Origin: Bermanella sp. WJH001
GTDB taxonomy: Bacteria; Pseudomonadota; Gammaproteobacteria; Pseudomonadales; Oceanobacteraceae
Direction: 5' to 3'
Length of the DNA: 64,000 nucleotides
Assembly (NCBI RefSeq): GCF_030070105.1
Contig: NZ_JASJOO010000005.1
Span: 1 to 64,000 of the forward strand
Shown: piece by piece, positions 4,588 to 61,317 of the stretch
Layout of the letters: each line of letters opens with the position of its first letter
How positions within the stretch are numbered: position 1 is the first letter of the stretch
Position numbers and translations under genes: made by a program
Notes under the pieces: generated by a model
What the model saw: the letters and a program-made list of their open reading frames with translations, nothing else
Told to the model about the DNA's origin: nothing
Database searches by the model: none

Positions 4588-5946
4588 ATGACACGTGCTG
4601 CCTATTGGTTTACACAAGATCTGCGTATTGAGGATAACTCAGCCCTACAGGCGGTGTTAGCCCGCGCCCATGACGTGGCCTTTGTTTATGTACTTAACCC
4701 TGCGGATTTTGAGCCACGTGACTATCAAGTAAAAGCCATGGGTTTAAACCGTTGGCGGTTTTTATGTGAGGCGCTAACTGATCTTAACAGACAGTTGTAC
4801 CGGCGCGGTCATTGTTTGACCTTATTGGTAGGTGAGCCCAATGAAGCAATCTCACAATTTATTCGCCAGTATAATGTGCAAACCCTTGGGGTGGCCCATC
4901 AAGTGGGTTGGTATGAGCAACAAGCCCTTGCCAATATTGAAAAGCAGCATGCAGATCTTGCCATTGTACGTCGATGGAATGCCACTTTATTTACTGCTGA
5001 TGAAATTGAGTCTGGCCCGCTGGGTTCGTTTTCTCGCTTTCGCAATACCATGGAAAAAAAAGGCACGCCGGTATCGTCTATTGTACCGGTCATGCCTCAG
5101 CCTTGGCCTGCTCCTTATACTGGGGATGTTGTTACTGGTAGACATGAAGCGTTTGTCAGTCAATTGCATCAATATGAAAGTGACGTTCAACAGGGGAAAA
5201 TCGACTCAAGTGGTGATTCACAGCTTGAGTTTGTAGGTGGTGAAAGCCACGCTTTAAAGCATCTGCAAACCTATTTTGAGTCTCGTCAAGCCGATACCTA
5301 CAAACAAACCCGCAATGAACTGGACGACTGGCTAAGTTCCACCAAATTCAGCCCTTACCTGGCCCTTGGTAATATTTCCCCTAAACAAATCTGGCAGCGC
5401 CTTAAACAATATGAACATGAACACGGTGCCAACGACTCCACTTACTGGATTGGCTTTGAACTATTATGGCGCGAATATTTTCAATGGTTGTTATTGCAAA
5501 ATGGTAAGCGCAGCTTTGCGTTTCAAGGTTGTGCCAAAGACAAACCCTTAACCAGTTTTTACCCAGAGCGCTTTGCTAAATGGTGCAAAGGGGAAACCCC
5601 CTACCCATTAGTCAATGCGTGTATGCATCAATTAAATATCACCGGCTATATGTCGAATCGCGGTCGTCAAATTGTGGCCAGTTGTTTGGTGAATGAGTTG
5701 GCATTGGATTGGCGTTATGGGGCGGCGTATTTTCAGCAGCAGTTGTTGGATTATGACGTGGCATCTAACTGGGGGAATTGGCAATACATTGCAGGTGTAG
5801 GTGCGGACCCAAGAGGTGGGCGTCACTTTAATTTAGAAAAACAAACACAACTTTATGATCCAAGGGGCCTATTCATTAATAAGTGGAATGGCCAAGGTAC
5901 GCTTATGCCGCTGGATTCTGTGGACGCAGCTGATTGGCCCATTTGA
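4588..5946 (+). CDS. Cryptochrome/photolyase, DASH type
   Basis: A 452-residue FAD-dependent blue-light protein. The N-terminal Rossmann-like photolyase domain (about 1-135) starts with [15 protein letters not shown]. The C-terminal helical FAD domain has [53 protein letters not shown] and the DASH-typical [19 protein letters not shown] ending. DASH proteins repair cyclobutane dimers in single-stranded or looped DNA, and some act as photosensors. It is the first gene of a compact cluster: the DUF2256 gene begins 1 bp after its stop. Length is normal for the family. There is no strong ribosome binding site before the ATG. DASH versus another photolyase class is clear from the C-terminal motifs. 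Confidence 0.92.
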
Positions 5947-5947
5947 T

Positions 5948-6109
5948 ATGAAAAAACAGCATCTACCTTCTAAAATATGTGTGGTGTGCCAGCGGCCATT
6001 TAGCTGGCGTAAAAAGTGGGAGCGGGATTGGCCACAGGTAAAATATTGCTCCAAACGGTGCGCAGGGCAGTCATCTAACAATAAACTTCATCAAGGCGTT
6101 GAATCATGA
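5948..6109 (+). CDS. DUF2256 zinc-ribbon protein
   Basis: A 53-residue protein, [18 protein letters not shown] then WRKKWERDW and [10 protein letters not shown]. The two Cys pairs (CVVC and C-x3-C) look like a small treble-clef or zinc ribbon. This is the DUF2256 pattern, a family often found beside photolyase genes. I chose the ATG at 5948, 1 bp after the cryptochrome stop, over the upstream in-frame start inside the cryptochrome because the conserved domain starts here. Its stop overlaps the next ATG by four bases (ATGA). That spacing strongly suggests translational coupling and a role with the photolyases, which is otherwise unknown. Confidence 0.88.
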
Positions 6110-7692
6110 AATCCAAGTACCACACACTTCGTCTGATTTTAGGTGACCAACTTAACGCACAGCATTCCTGGTTTAAAACCAAGGATGATAAAACTCTTTA
6201 TGTATTAGCCGAGCTGCACCAAGAAGCGCAATACGTGCTCCACCATATTCAAAAAATCAGTGCGTTTTTTTGTGCCATGGAGCAATTTGCCAGCGGCTTA
6301 AAAAAAGCAGGTTACCAAGTGTTGCACTTAAACTTGGATGATACCCAAGAGTTTGCAACCTTGCCTGATTTAATTAATTCGTTAGTTTCTCAATATAAAA
6401 TTCAACGCTTTGAATATCAGTTGGCCGATGAATATCGGTTGCGCGAACAAATCAACCACATTGTGAACCAGTTTAATATTGAAAACCAAGCCTATGAAAC
6501 TGAGCACTTTTATTTAAACCAAGCGGATTGTGAACAAGATTTTAAAAAAGGAAAGCGCCATCGTATGGAAGCGTTTTACCGCAAAATGCGTAAACGCTTT
6601 AATATATTAATGCACGGTGATGAGCCGGTAGGTGGGCAGTGGAATTACGATGGTGAAAACCGCAATAAATTAAAAGCCGCTGATTTCTCCCATGTGCCCA
6701 AACCCTTGGTATTTAATAATGATGTGCGGGATATTTTAACGCGCATTAAGCGCCACAAGATTCCCACCATAGGCGTCGAAACACCGGATTTACTGTGGCC
6801 AGTGAATCGTCAGCAGGCCAACGAGTTGCTGGATTATTTTTGTGAGCATGGTTTGAGTCATTTTGGCCAGTTTCAAGATGCCATGACATCACAACTTGAT
6901 AAAAGTGAACCAGAGCACGCCCATGAAAAACGACAATGGAGTTTGTATCACAGCCGTTTGTCGTTTGCGCTGAATGCAAAAATGATCAGTCCGGTAAAAG
7001 TGGTGTCACAGGCATTAGCCCATTACCAAAAAAATAAAGACACCATCAGCTTGGCGCAAATAGAAGGGTTTGTAAGACAAATTCTAGGCTGGCGAGAATT
7101 TATTCGCGGGATTTATTGGGCCAACATGCCAGAGTATGCCCAACTGAATGCTTTGTCGGCCACGCGGGATTTACCCAGCTGGTTTTGGACAGGTAACACC
7201 CATATGAACTGCCTTAAGCAGGCCATTACTCAATCTTTAGATTATGCCTATGCTCATCATATTCAGCGTTTAATGATTACAGGTAACTTTAGTTTATTGG
7301 CGGGCATTAACCCCGACCAAGTGGATCAATGGTATTTAGGCATTTACATTGACGCCATTGAATGGGTAGAAATGCCCAATACCCGCGGCATGAGCCAATT
7401 TGCCGATGGTGGCATTGTGGGGTCAAAAGCCTATGCGGCCAGTGGCAACTATGTGAAAAAAATGAGTGATTATTGCAGTGACTGTCGTTACAAGGTCACC
7501 GAGCAAACCGGCCATCATGCTTGCCCGTTAAACGCCTTGTATTGGCGGTTTATGGATGAACATCACCAAACCTTTACCACCAACCCCAGAAACAAAATGG
7601 TCTATTCCAACTGGCTTAAAAAGCCCTCTGATCAACGGGATGCCATTTTGCAGCATGCTAATGCCAGCTTGATCAACATTGAGCAATTATGA
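6106..7692 (+). CDS. Cryptochrome/photolyase-related Fe-S protein (FeS-BCP / PhrB-like)
   Basis: 528 residues. The N-terminus [16 protein letters not shown] is the hallmark of the deoxyribodipyrimidine photolyase-related family. The C-terminal FAD domain includes [23 protein letters not shown] and the cysteine set for a 4Fe-4S cluster: Cys in HMNCLK, then YCSDCRYK and [10 protein letters not shown]. Characterised relatives are (6-4) photolyases that bind FAD, a lumazine and the cluster. All four expected cysteines are present, so an active protein is likely. It is the third gene in the light cluster, overlapping DUF2256 by 4 bp. With the DASH protein it would cover both major UV lesion types, though the substrate is inferred from family. 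Confidence 0.9.
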
Positions 7693-17195: not shown

Positions 17196-17235
17196 GAATC
17201 TATTTCATTGTAATTAATTTCAATGAAATAGATTC
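17196..17235. terminator. 15-bp perfect inverted repeat, likely terminator of the phosphoesterase gene
   Basis: Arms GAATCTATTTCATTG (17196-17210) and its complement (17221-17235) around a 10-base loop, 31 bp beyond the stop of the minus-strand metallophosphoesterase. The stem is AT-rich and no clear U-run follows, so it could also be a small mobile or regulatory palindrome. Confidence 0.5.
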
Positions 17236-17265: not shown

Positions 17266-18297
17266 TTACTTTTGTATCACCCGTGTATACGCCAGCTCGT
17301 GTTGACCAGCTTCAACGGTATAGGCCTCTACGGTAAGTTCATTACCTATAAAGTTTAAGCGGAAAAAGCCTTTGGTTTTATCTTGCTGCCAAAAAACGTC
17401 ATTACGATTTGCATCACTAAATGAGCGGGTTTTAGCGCCCGCACCAGAGACAATAAATTCGGTACTGCCACAGTTTTCACGTGGTTTTAAATATTGTAAG
17501 TCATGGTCATGACCGGTAATTAATAAATCGACGTTATCGCATACCGATTGCTCTAAAAAGTTGTGCCATACAATGCCCAATAAGGGAATGTTGTCGTATA
17601 GCCCAGCGTTACCGTGGCGGCCATTGGAGATGTAAGGGTGATGAGCAAAGGCAATACGCCATGGTGTTTGGCTGGTGCTGAGTTGTTCTTCAAACCAGGC
17701 TTGCTGTTTCTTTTTATAGGGGGTTTGATAATACTCGGGATTTAAGTCACTTAATGCAGCCAATGGGTTACTGTCTAGTGCAAAAATATCCACTAACTTA
17801 GCCTCGCTTGCTACTGGTGCTGCAAAGCGATAATAACGGGCTGGCATGTTCCATTTTTCACTGTAGCGGTCGGCTTGATAGTGATATTCCACTTGATGCT
17901 CACCTTTATTGTTATTTAACCCCAAACCGTCAATGGTGGAGTTATCATGATTGCCAAGGGCCATATAAAATGGGAACTCGAGATTGTCATATGGGTATTC
18001 AAATTTTGTCAGCATTTGCTGATCTTGCGCGCTATCAATGCCTACTTCATAAATGTTATCGCCTAGGCCAATAGCAAAGTCACAACTTTTTTCTGCACAA
18101 ACGGCTTCTATTGCGCGGCTGACTTCATACTGGGCTTCTTCACCTGTGCCCATATCACCAATGGCAATAATACTTACCTGTGTATTGGGTGCAGGAATGG
18201 GAGTGGGCAAGGGGGTAGGCTCACTAGACATAGCTAAAGATAAGCCAGGGGCCAATAGGCTAGTGAATGCGAGAGTTGCTAGAGTTTTATTATTCAT
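17266..18297 (-). CDS. Secreted metallophosphoesterase (purple acid phosphatase-like)
   Basis: 343 residues from the ATG at 18297, chosen because GGAGG lies 8 bp upstream and a signal peptide (MNNKTLATLAFTSLLAPGLSLA) begins there. The longer frame from 18324 adds no such feature. After a proline-rich linker, the calcineurin-like domain shows the metal ligands IGDMGTG, LGDNIYE, ALGNHDN, FAHHPYISNG and LITGHDHDLQYL in order. It probably hydrolyses phosphate esters in the periplasm, serving phosphate supply, but the substrate is unknown. It resembles tartrate-resistant acid phosphatase more than nucleotidases. It stands alone, with a palindrome 31 bp after the stop. Confidence 0.9.
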   Translation of the reverse strand: MNNKTLATLAFTSLLAPGLSLAMSSEPTPLPTPIPAPNTQVSIIAIGDMGTGEEAQYEVSRAIEAVCAEKSCDFAIGLGDNIYEVGIDSAQDQQMLTKFEYPYDNLEFPFYMALGNHDNSTIDGLGLNNNKGEHQVEYHYQADRYSEKWNMPARYYRFAAPVASEAKLVDIFALDSNPLAALSDLNPEYYQTPYKKKQQAWFEEQLSTSQTPWRIAFAHHPYISNGRHGNAGLYDNIPLLGIVWHNFLEQSVCDNVDLLITGHDHDLQYLKPRENCGSTEFIVSGAGAKTRSFSDANRNDVFWQQDKTKGFFRLNFIGNELTVEAYTVEAGQHELAYTRVIQK

Positions 18298-18573
18298 ATT
18301 GTATCCTCCATGATCGGAGTGCACACACTAGCGAGAAGTTATTGCAATCAAAATACCTTAATACGACAGATTCATGTCATATGGGGACACATGGTTTAAA
18401 GGTTGAAGTACGTCACGAACACCCGTACTAAAAAGCAGTTATTACCTTACATAATGGGCTTACTCAAATAAGATACTTATTGATGAGCGCAAGTATTAGC
18501 CAGTACGCTGACTCTTGCATAAATGCTATTATCCGCCAATTAAAGATTGAGAAGTGAAAATATAGGGATCAGT

Positions 18574-60337: not shown

Positions 60338-60736
60338 TTACATCAAGCTGAATAGACCAAGCGGATGGTGAGTGCGAGCGATGGTAACCATCAATAAAAC
60401 ACAGGCAATAGCCGCTGCAATATAGCCACTTTGCATAACTTGTGTGGTGCTTCTCATTGCTTTTATACCAAACCAAATATAACCCACAAGCACAATCAGT
60501 TTAACCGTAAGCCATGATTGGGCGATAGGGTATTGTGAGGTGGCAAACATTAAACAGACACCAGTGATCAGTAGAAAAGAATCTATGGTATAGGCACTGA
60601 TTCTAACCCCAAGCTTGTCCTGCCATTGCTTTTTTAGCAGTTTAGAGATTGCTCTGATTGTGAAGTACAGAATACTGATACTCACCAGTAAAAGGTGTGT
60701 GTGCTTTAAAGGGACATAAAGAGATTCTAAAGCCAT
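60338..60736 (-). CDS. SirB2-family membrane protein
   Basis: 132 residues from the ATG at 60736 (MALESLYVPLKHTHLLLVS), with four helices and the family's LKHTHL and GVCLMFATSQYPI regions; TTAGGA precedes the ATG. A TTG at 60778 in the same frame would add 14 residues and sits next to a GGAGGG in the large palindrome, so a second start is conceivable. SirB2 proteins are integral membrane proteins of unknown function. It is divergent from the TPR-like gene; the two starts are separated by a Fur-box palindrome. This suggests iron control, though only one direction may be affected. Confidence 0.85.
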   Translation of the reverse strand: MALESLYVPLKHTHLLLVSISILYFTIRAISKLLKKQWQDKLGVRISAYTIDSFLLITGVCLMFATSQYPIAQSWLTVKLIVLVGYIWFGIKAMRSTTQVMQSGYIAAAIACVLLMVTIARTHHPLGLFSLM

Positions 60737-60782
60737 GTTGCATCCTAATTTAATATTAATGTTCTTAGCGCTTGACAAATAA

Positions 60783-60831
60783 CCCTCCAGATACTTAAAT
60801 GATAATCATTATCATTTAAGTATCTGGAGGG
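60783..60831. promoter_or_regulatory. 49-bp perfect palindrome containing a Fur box
   Basis: Two 24-bp arms flank a single central C at 60807. The left arm starts CCCTCCAGATACTTAAATG and the right arm mirrors it exactly, ending AAGTATCTGGAGGG. The centre contains GATAATCATTATC (60801-60813), very close to the Fur consensus, in a longer AAATGATAATCATT... palindrome. Each arm carries GGAGGG outward: on the plus strand it is the ribosome binding site for the ATG at 60838, on the minus strand it precedes a TTG at 60778. The whole unit can fold into a 24-bp hairpin in DNA or in RNA. Confidence 0.9.
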
Positions 60832-60837
60832 TGTCAT

Positions 60838-61317
60838 ATGAAAGTCCCGCAAAATATACAGGATGTGATGAAAAATTGGGAATCTTATACGCTCTTAGCG
60901 GATAGTTTCTATCATCAGCAGCAGTATAAACAAGCGAGTAAGGTTTTTTCGAAAAGTGTCGAGATTATTGAGCCTTGGCTAGATAAAGATGAAAAAGAAT
61001 TGAATAAAGTCATGCATTTATTTGTCTTGTCTTGTCACAACACAGCTCATGCGCTGAACCAATTAGGTAAGAACAAAGAAGCGGAATATTATTATAGTCA
61101 CGCTCACTTTAGGTTATTAAGCTTAATTAGCCGACCTAAGCGTTCATCTCGTATTATGGAAAATGCCGTTTATGAGCTTAAGACCACGTTAAAACAACTG
61201 AAATACTTTTTGTTATCCATGAATAAAGATCAGCTTGCGGGCAATATACATGAGGAAAGTGTGCGTGTGCTACGCAAAAGTTATGTTGACTATGTAGAAG
61301 ATGTTTTCACGGTATAG
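60838..61317 (+). CDS. Small TPR-like, putatively iron-regulated protein (possibly DUF2753-like)
   Basis: 159 residues. TPR-like helices are visible (ESYTLLADSFYHQQQYKQAS ... VLSCHNTAHALNQLGKNKEA). The opening resembles the Vibrio DUF2753 proteins (a W-x-x-x-TLLAD start), but I hold this as tentative. There is no signal peptide, so it is cytoplasmic. GGAGGG seven bases before the ATG lies within the right arm of the 49-bp palindrome, and the Fur box centre is 30 bp upstream of the ATG, so strong iron-dependent repression is likely. A hairpin follows the stop. No enzyme motif is visible. Confidence 0.7.
   Translation: MKVPQNIQDVMKNWESYTLLADSFYHQQQYKQASKVFSKSVEIIEPWLDKDEKELNKVMHLFVLSCHNTAHALNQLGKNKEAEYYYSHAHFRLLSLISRPKRSSRIMENAVYELKTTLKQLKYFLLSMNKDQLAGNIHEESVRVLRKSYVDYVEDVFTV

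Follow-up and report, generated by a model that had tools for sequence, protein, structure and literature searches.

The window, by which we mean the whole 64,000-nt stretch of Bermanella sp. WJH001 DNA that was analysed, carries between two divergent genes a perfect palindrome of 51 bp (60782–60832), for which the inverted-repeat analysis of the locus gave two 25-nt arms that are 100% complementary. The first-pass annotation had described a 49-bp perfect palindrome with 24-bp arms; the palindrome is real, and one extra pair is to be added at each end. The genes and signals at the locus are as follows.

60338 to 60736, minus strand: SirB2-like protein, the divergent neighbour (PF04247, 101 bits; ATG at 60736)
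60772 to 60777, plus strand: −35 element TTGACA of the TPR-like gene
60782 to 60806: left arm of the palindrome
60783 to 60788, minus strand: mirrored GGAGGG (CCCTCC on the plus strand)
60795 to 60800, plus strand: −10 element TTAAAT, after a 17-nt spacer
60797 to 60817: Fur box core AAATGATAATCATTATCATTT, 21 bp and perfect, overlapping the −10 element and the predicted start, kept in the genus
60807: single centre nucleotide of the palindrome, C
60808 to 60832: right arm of the palindrome
60826 to 60831, plus strand: GGAGGG, Shine-Dalgarno sequence of the TPR-like gene
60838 to 61317, plus strand: small TPR/DUF2753-like protein of 159 aa with TPR matches

Against PF10952 (DUF2753, a little-studied protein family), the TPR-like protein of the window scored 28.5 bits, 0.2 under the cut-off of 28.7, and its orthologue in genome G008 (68% identical) scored 40.3 bits, above the cut-off. 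The window protein resembles the DUF2753/TPR proteins in its TPR matches and differs from them in standing slightly below the PF10952 cut-off; its matches among solved structures are designed TPR proteins, kinesin light chain and designed or fusion chains.

A scan for inverted repeats with perfect arms of at least 11 nt and loops of at most 10 nt, run over the window and 19 other stretches that make up about 10% of the genome, yielded 57 repeats in 425,566 bases. The 25-nt arms proved the longest, followed by a terminator-like repeat of 19 nt; perfection of such length is rare in this DNA, as had been claimed, and the arm length is unmatched elsewhere in the sample. By eye, 19 of the 24 other longest repeats listed are bounded by A and T runs in the fashion of intrinsic terminators, and such runs are absent at the 51-bp palindrome. 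Two other findings of the scan are recorded here in their own right. At 17196–17235 of the window, a perfect inverted repeat, with arms of 15 nt around an AT-rich loop of 10 nt and without flanking A/T runs of the terminator kind, stands 30 nt past the 3′ end of a minus-strand gene (17266–18324) that we take, from reading its sequence, to be phosphatase-like. Another stretch of the same genome (L088) holds three 13-nt terminator-like hairpins (5843–5872, 5981–6010 and 6116–6145) at a spacing of 135–138 bases, the first and third identical and the middle one with different stem letters.

Operators of the iron regulator Fur have a palindromic consensus core of 19–21 bp. The exact 21-bp core is present in the palindrome, in agreement with the Fur box claimed in the first-pass annotation, and a Fur box with 0–2 mismatches stands upstream of the TPR-like gene in all nine genus genomes examined, each of which has this gene. 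The AAATGATAATCATTATCATTT site ranks best among the six distinct sites of the genome with at most three mismatches to the Fur 19-mer, and the genome encodes one Fur protein (PF01475, 152 bits). Similar Fur sites from the same searches lie near genes that, from reading their sequences, are presumably exbB-like, FbpA-like and FeoA-like. Among 11 more distant homologue loci (L012–L022), seven have a Fur-like site with at most four mismatches, as has L030, and none was found within this limit at L017, L019, L020 and L021. Like known Fur boxes, the site has a palindromic core of 19–21 bp overlapping the −10 element and the predicted start; unlike them, it has 25-nt perfect arms that greatly exceed the operator.

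TTGACA is present in all nine orthologous promoters (five aligned), and in the orthologous promoters of the genus TTAAAT or a close variant stands before GATAAT. Since the promoter TTGACA-17-TTAAAT is kept in the genus, transcription of the TPR-like gene should start at about 60807, near the centre of the palindrome. A consensus promoter scan missed this promoter, as its rule demands A at the second −10 position. We infer that what functions here is a Fur operator positioned across the −10 element and the start, through which Fur together with iron would block the TPR-like gene. The further proposal that Fur controls two divergent promoters traces to a single minus-strand match, ATGACA-18-GATAAT (60837–60808, 10 of 12 bases), and promoter-like matches in the region occur at chance level (3 found against 2.4 expected). 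A mirrored −35 element outside the arm (TGAC after a gap of 4–5 nt), spotted by eye, is probably due to chance and was set aside.

The GGAGGG of the right arm, 6 nt upstream of the ATG at 60838, is suitably spaced to serve the TPR-like gene, as had been annotated. The companion idea of two mirrored ribosome binding sites fares differently: as the left copy lies between the −35 and −10 elements of the right-hand promoter and 47 nt from the sirB2 ATG, its position does not suit a ribosome binding site and it is probably not one; the likelier reading is that one of the two copies is the mirror image of the other. An N-terminally extended sirB2 starting at TTG 60778 and using the left GGAGGG was considered and rejected, the corresponding TTG of genome G002 being out of frame by eye.

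Comparison of the orthologous sites in the nine genus genomes revealed that the innermost perfect run is 25 nt in our species, 23 nt in G008 and 6–8 nt in the remaining seven. The G008 site is a perfect 47-bp palindrome with arm letters unlike those of the window: 8 of 23 arm positions differ between the two, and all eight differences are compensated, leaving both palindromes perfect. G002 is the nearest to our species (81% protein identity), yet 13 of its 25 arm positions are unpaired. A protein tree of the genus sets our species, G002 and G008 apart from the other six (99/98) and leaves the order of these three unsettled, with L012 and G005 as long branches. The comparison of arms for compensatory changes, suggested in the first-pass annotation and run here between species, thus came out in two ways, with compensation throughout between our species and G008 and non-compensated change in G002. 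Its reading of arm perfection as a product of selection finds no support where seven of nine species, among them the nearest relative, are without the perfect extension. Judged from these sequences, the long arms are species-specific and the link of the core operator to the TPR-like gene is conserved.

Exact matches to the 21-bp core pattern were searched in partly overlapping sets of 390 genomes of the order, 369 of the class, 24 of one other order and 44 of the family, and 30 distinct sites were collected. Perfect arms of at least 19 nt were found in four of them, namely our own site (25 nt), G008 (23 nt), G027 (20 nt) and G129 (19 nt), with differing outer letters, and the other 26 have perfect arms of 10–15 nt. 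In all four long cases full perfection ends abruptly. When our own site was left out, 3 of 29 sites had at least nine extra pairs beyond the core, which gives p = 0.002 at a match rate of 0.59, a generous value fitted to the 26 short sites, and p = 2e-13 at a match rate of 0.25. None of 18 other Fur-like sites with 1–3 mismatches and a retrieved locus (the orthologous site excluded) has a run longer than 7, a weak control in that a core mismatch often breaks the run.

Three of the four long palindromes stand at TPR-like genes (our own site, G008 and G027) and the fourth at a pntA-like gene (G129), which amounts to 3 of 13 TPR-linked sites versus 1 of 17 sites elsewhere (Fisher p = 0.29, with small numbers). 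The G027 case (same family; L112:1491–1531) is a 41-bp perfect palindrome on a Fur core before a TPR-like ORF of 119 aa, and a protein search gave no match for G027. The G129 case (L055:1492–1530) is a 39-bp perfect palindrome on a Fur core before a gene that we take, from reading its sequence, to be pntA; some 70 bases upstream of the palindrome there is another Fur-like stretch. A 301-base query from G129 against six genomes of its family matched G129 itself (in full, with the palindrome also on the other strand) and two others, where the match was confined to 27 bases of the palindrome region, so that these relatives offered no site for comparison.

A profile of the TPR-like family detected a relative adjoining 13 of the 30 exact cores (E ≤ 0.01), our own site, G008 and G027 included, and 8 of the 13 matches are weak (E between 8e-8 and 1.4e-4, with 1089 frames searched). 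The TPR/DUF2753-like loci matched near Fur cores are L058, L061, L062, L065–L071 and L111–L113, and they come from several families of the order. By eye L060 resembles them, and it has no profile match. These data point to a Fur-linked family of small TPR/DUF2753-like proteins.

The direction of copying was read from arm positions 11–17. The right arm of our species agrees with the left arms of the other species at 6, 4, 6, 5, 5, 5, 6 and 4 of 7 positions (mean 5.1) and with their right arms at 2, 4, 3, 3, 4, 3, 2 and 2 of 7 (mean 2.9); in a left-versus-right score matrix the column mean is 5.12 for our right arm and 0.12–3.0 for the right arms of other species. Because our right arm resembles the left arms of other species, its inner part looks as if the promoter (left) side had been copied over it. 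The arm comparison gave no signal of direction for positions 18–25 of our site or for the G008 site.

Traces of older palindromes are no more than hinted at in the seven short-run species. G007, G001 and G004 have 10 pairs across positions 11–30 despite their short perfect run, 10 of 20 being the best value among the seven, reached by these three, and ungapped matches of at least 10 of 20 occur in 3 of 18 other Fur-like sites as well. Left–right permutation over the seven species without our own and G008 gave 33 of 5040 under one scoring scheme and 260 of 5040 under a second; with all nine species the values are 10 and 92 of 100000, carried by our own and G008. Such putative decayed palindromes would be expected if the arms are neutral.

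We consider it likely that the long arms, lying over a functional Fur operator, are a product of template switching during replication (quasipalindrome correction), for which the Fur palindrome was the seed. The Fur half-sites would fold back during replication, or the nascent strand would switch template at the quasi-palindrome, and one arm would be copied onto the other, giving a perfect palindrome in one or a few events; a Fur operator covering the start site would be a natural seed for such switching. In our species the left arm, on the promoter side, would have been the source of the inner copy and the right arm, on the 5′ leader side, its recipient, and the outer arms would have no function, the long perfect arms being a by-product. 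We favour this explanation because the patchy occurrence, the differing arms, the abruptly ending perfection and the left-like right arm all fit it. Against it count the lack of a direction signal in the outer arm, the faintness of the hints of decayed palindromes, and the position of three of the four long cases at one gene family, which gene-specific selection would fit as well.

Template switching that turns quasipalindromes into palindromes is established in E. coli, where it makes imperfect inverted repeats perfect (PMC7202029); it has also been proposed as a source of perfect stems and as a means of keeping them perfect, multibase compensatory changes included (PMC8794818), and in yeast such events are reported to have been seen only under high transcription (PMC3820800). 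The present case is like those of PMC7202029 and PMC8794818 in that a repeat is perfected, probably by copying of arm onto arm, and the ends are abrupt; it is unlike in being known as an evolutionary footprint only and in lying at a transcription-factor operator. Among the listed literature matches on template switching with palindromes, hairpins or operators, and on the Fur box with palindrome or TPR, as far as their available text goes, there was no report of Fur boxes extended in this way, and a search for Bermanella together with Fur gave no match. The site is most likely a new example of known things, a Fur operator and a template-switched palindrome.

Selection for the long palindrome as a DNA structure, the arms helping Fur oligomers or a promoter cruciform tuning the TPR-like gene, is a weaker rival and appears doubtful. 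As DNA, the 51-nt strand forms a very stable fold (−24.1 kcal/mol, z −12.9), TPR/DUF2753-like genes follow three of the four long palindromes, and the arms of our species and G008 are compensated at every differing position; but template switching explains this compensation equally well. Seven of nine genus orthologues are without the long arms, as are 10 of the 13 exact cores linked to TPR-like genes; the gene family shows no significant association, and the fourth long case lies at the unrelated pntA-like gene. A combined scheme, with Fur cores as recurrent seeds stretched in separate lineages and the stretched state kept at small-TPR genes for cruciform or Fur-oligomer control, likewise seems unlikely.

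An mRNA hairpin of 24–25 bp hiding the ribosome binding site of the TPR-like gene, which the first-pass annotation had coupled with Fur control of two divergent promoters, we hold to be improbable. The right arm does contain GGAGGG, and the minus-strand promoter-like match could be cited for the divergent part; however, the −35 element at 60772 and the −10 element at 60795 put the left arm upstream of the predicted start. As the left arm would then be promoter spacer and −10 element, the mRNA should carry the right arm only, one arm per transcript, and the predicted 5′ leader folds no better than shuffled sequences (z 0.24). Perfect pairing beyond 6–8 nt is missing in seven of nine species. 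Both outcomes that the first-pass annotation named as refuting its design are seen, non-compensated arm changes in the comparison between species and a start that leaves no RNA hairpin as a prediction. By eye, the RBS-like GGTGAG of G008 lies just partly within the arm and the RBS-like AGGGA of G027, before a second ATG, lies outside it, so that the whole RBS-like stretch is inside the arm in one of the three TPR-gene palindromes, our own. A known RNA at the palindrome was also considered and rejected, since each of the eight Rfam matches (E ≤ 1) was to a microRNA family and fell short of its gathering score.

A mobile palindromic element, a transcription terminator or an assembly artefact is very improbable. 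On the minus strand a scan for terminators reports the stem in three entries, with a broken T run, GTTATTTGTC, after it, and the scan finds four terminator-like sites in the region against 0.5 expected, but the stem belongs to a promoter that the genus retains and that in its G002 version is without such a stem. A dispersed repeat or MITE was rejected, as a DNA search of the own genome on both strands matched the own locus alone and found no second copy. Against an artefact stand the separate assemblies of other species with like structure and other letters, and an assembly fold-back is not expected to end at 25 nt. Chance extension of the Fur box can be practically dismissed: the Fur cores are already 21-bp palindromes themselves, but the 15 extra pairs of our site have a probability of about 1e-9 and nine extra pairs one of 4e-6 at the composition-based match rate of 0.25, and 4 of 30 exact-core sites are extended.

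If template switching is the cause, long perfect palindromes can grow from a short operator, and at such sites perfection and ‘compensated’ arms would say little in favour of selection. With the 30 exact Fur cores collected, it becomes testable how often, and in which direction, template switching occurs at operators.
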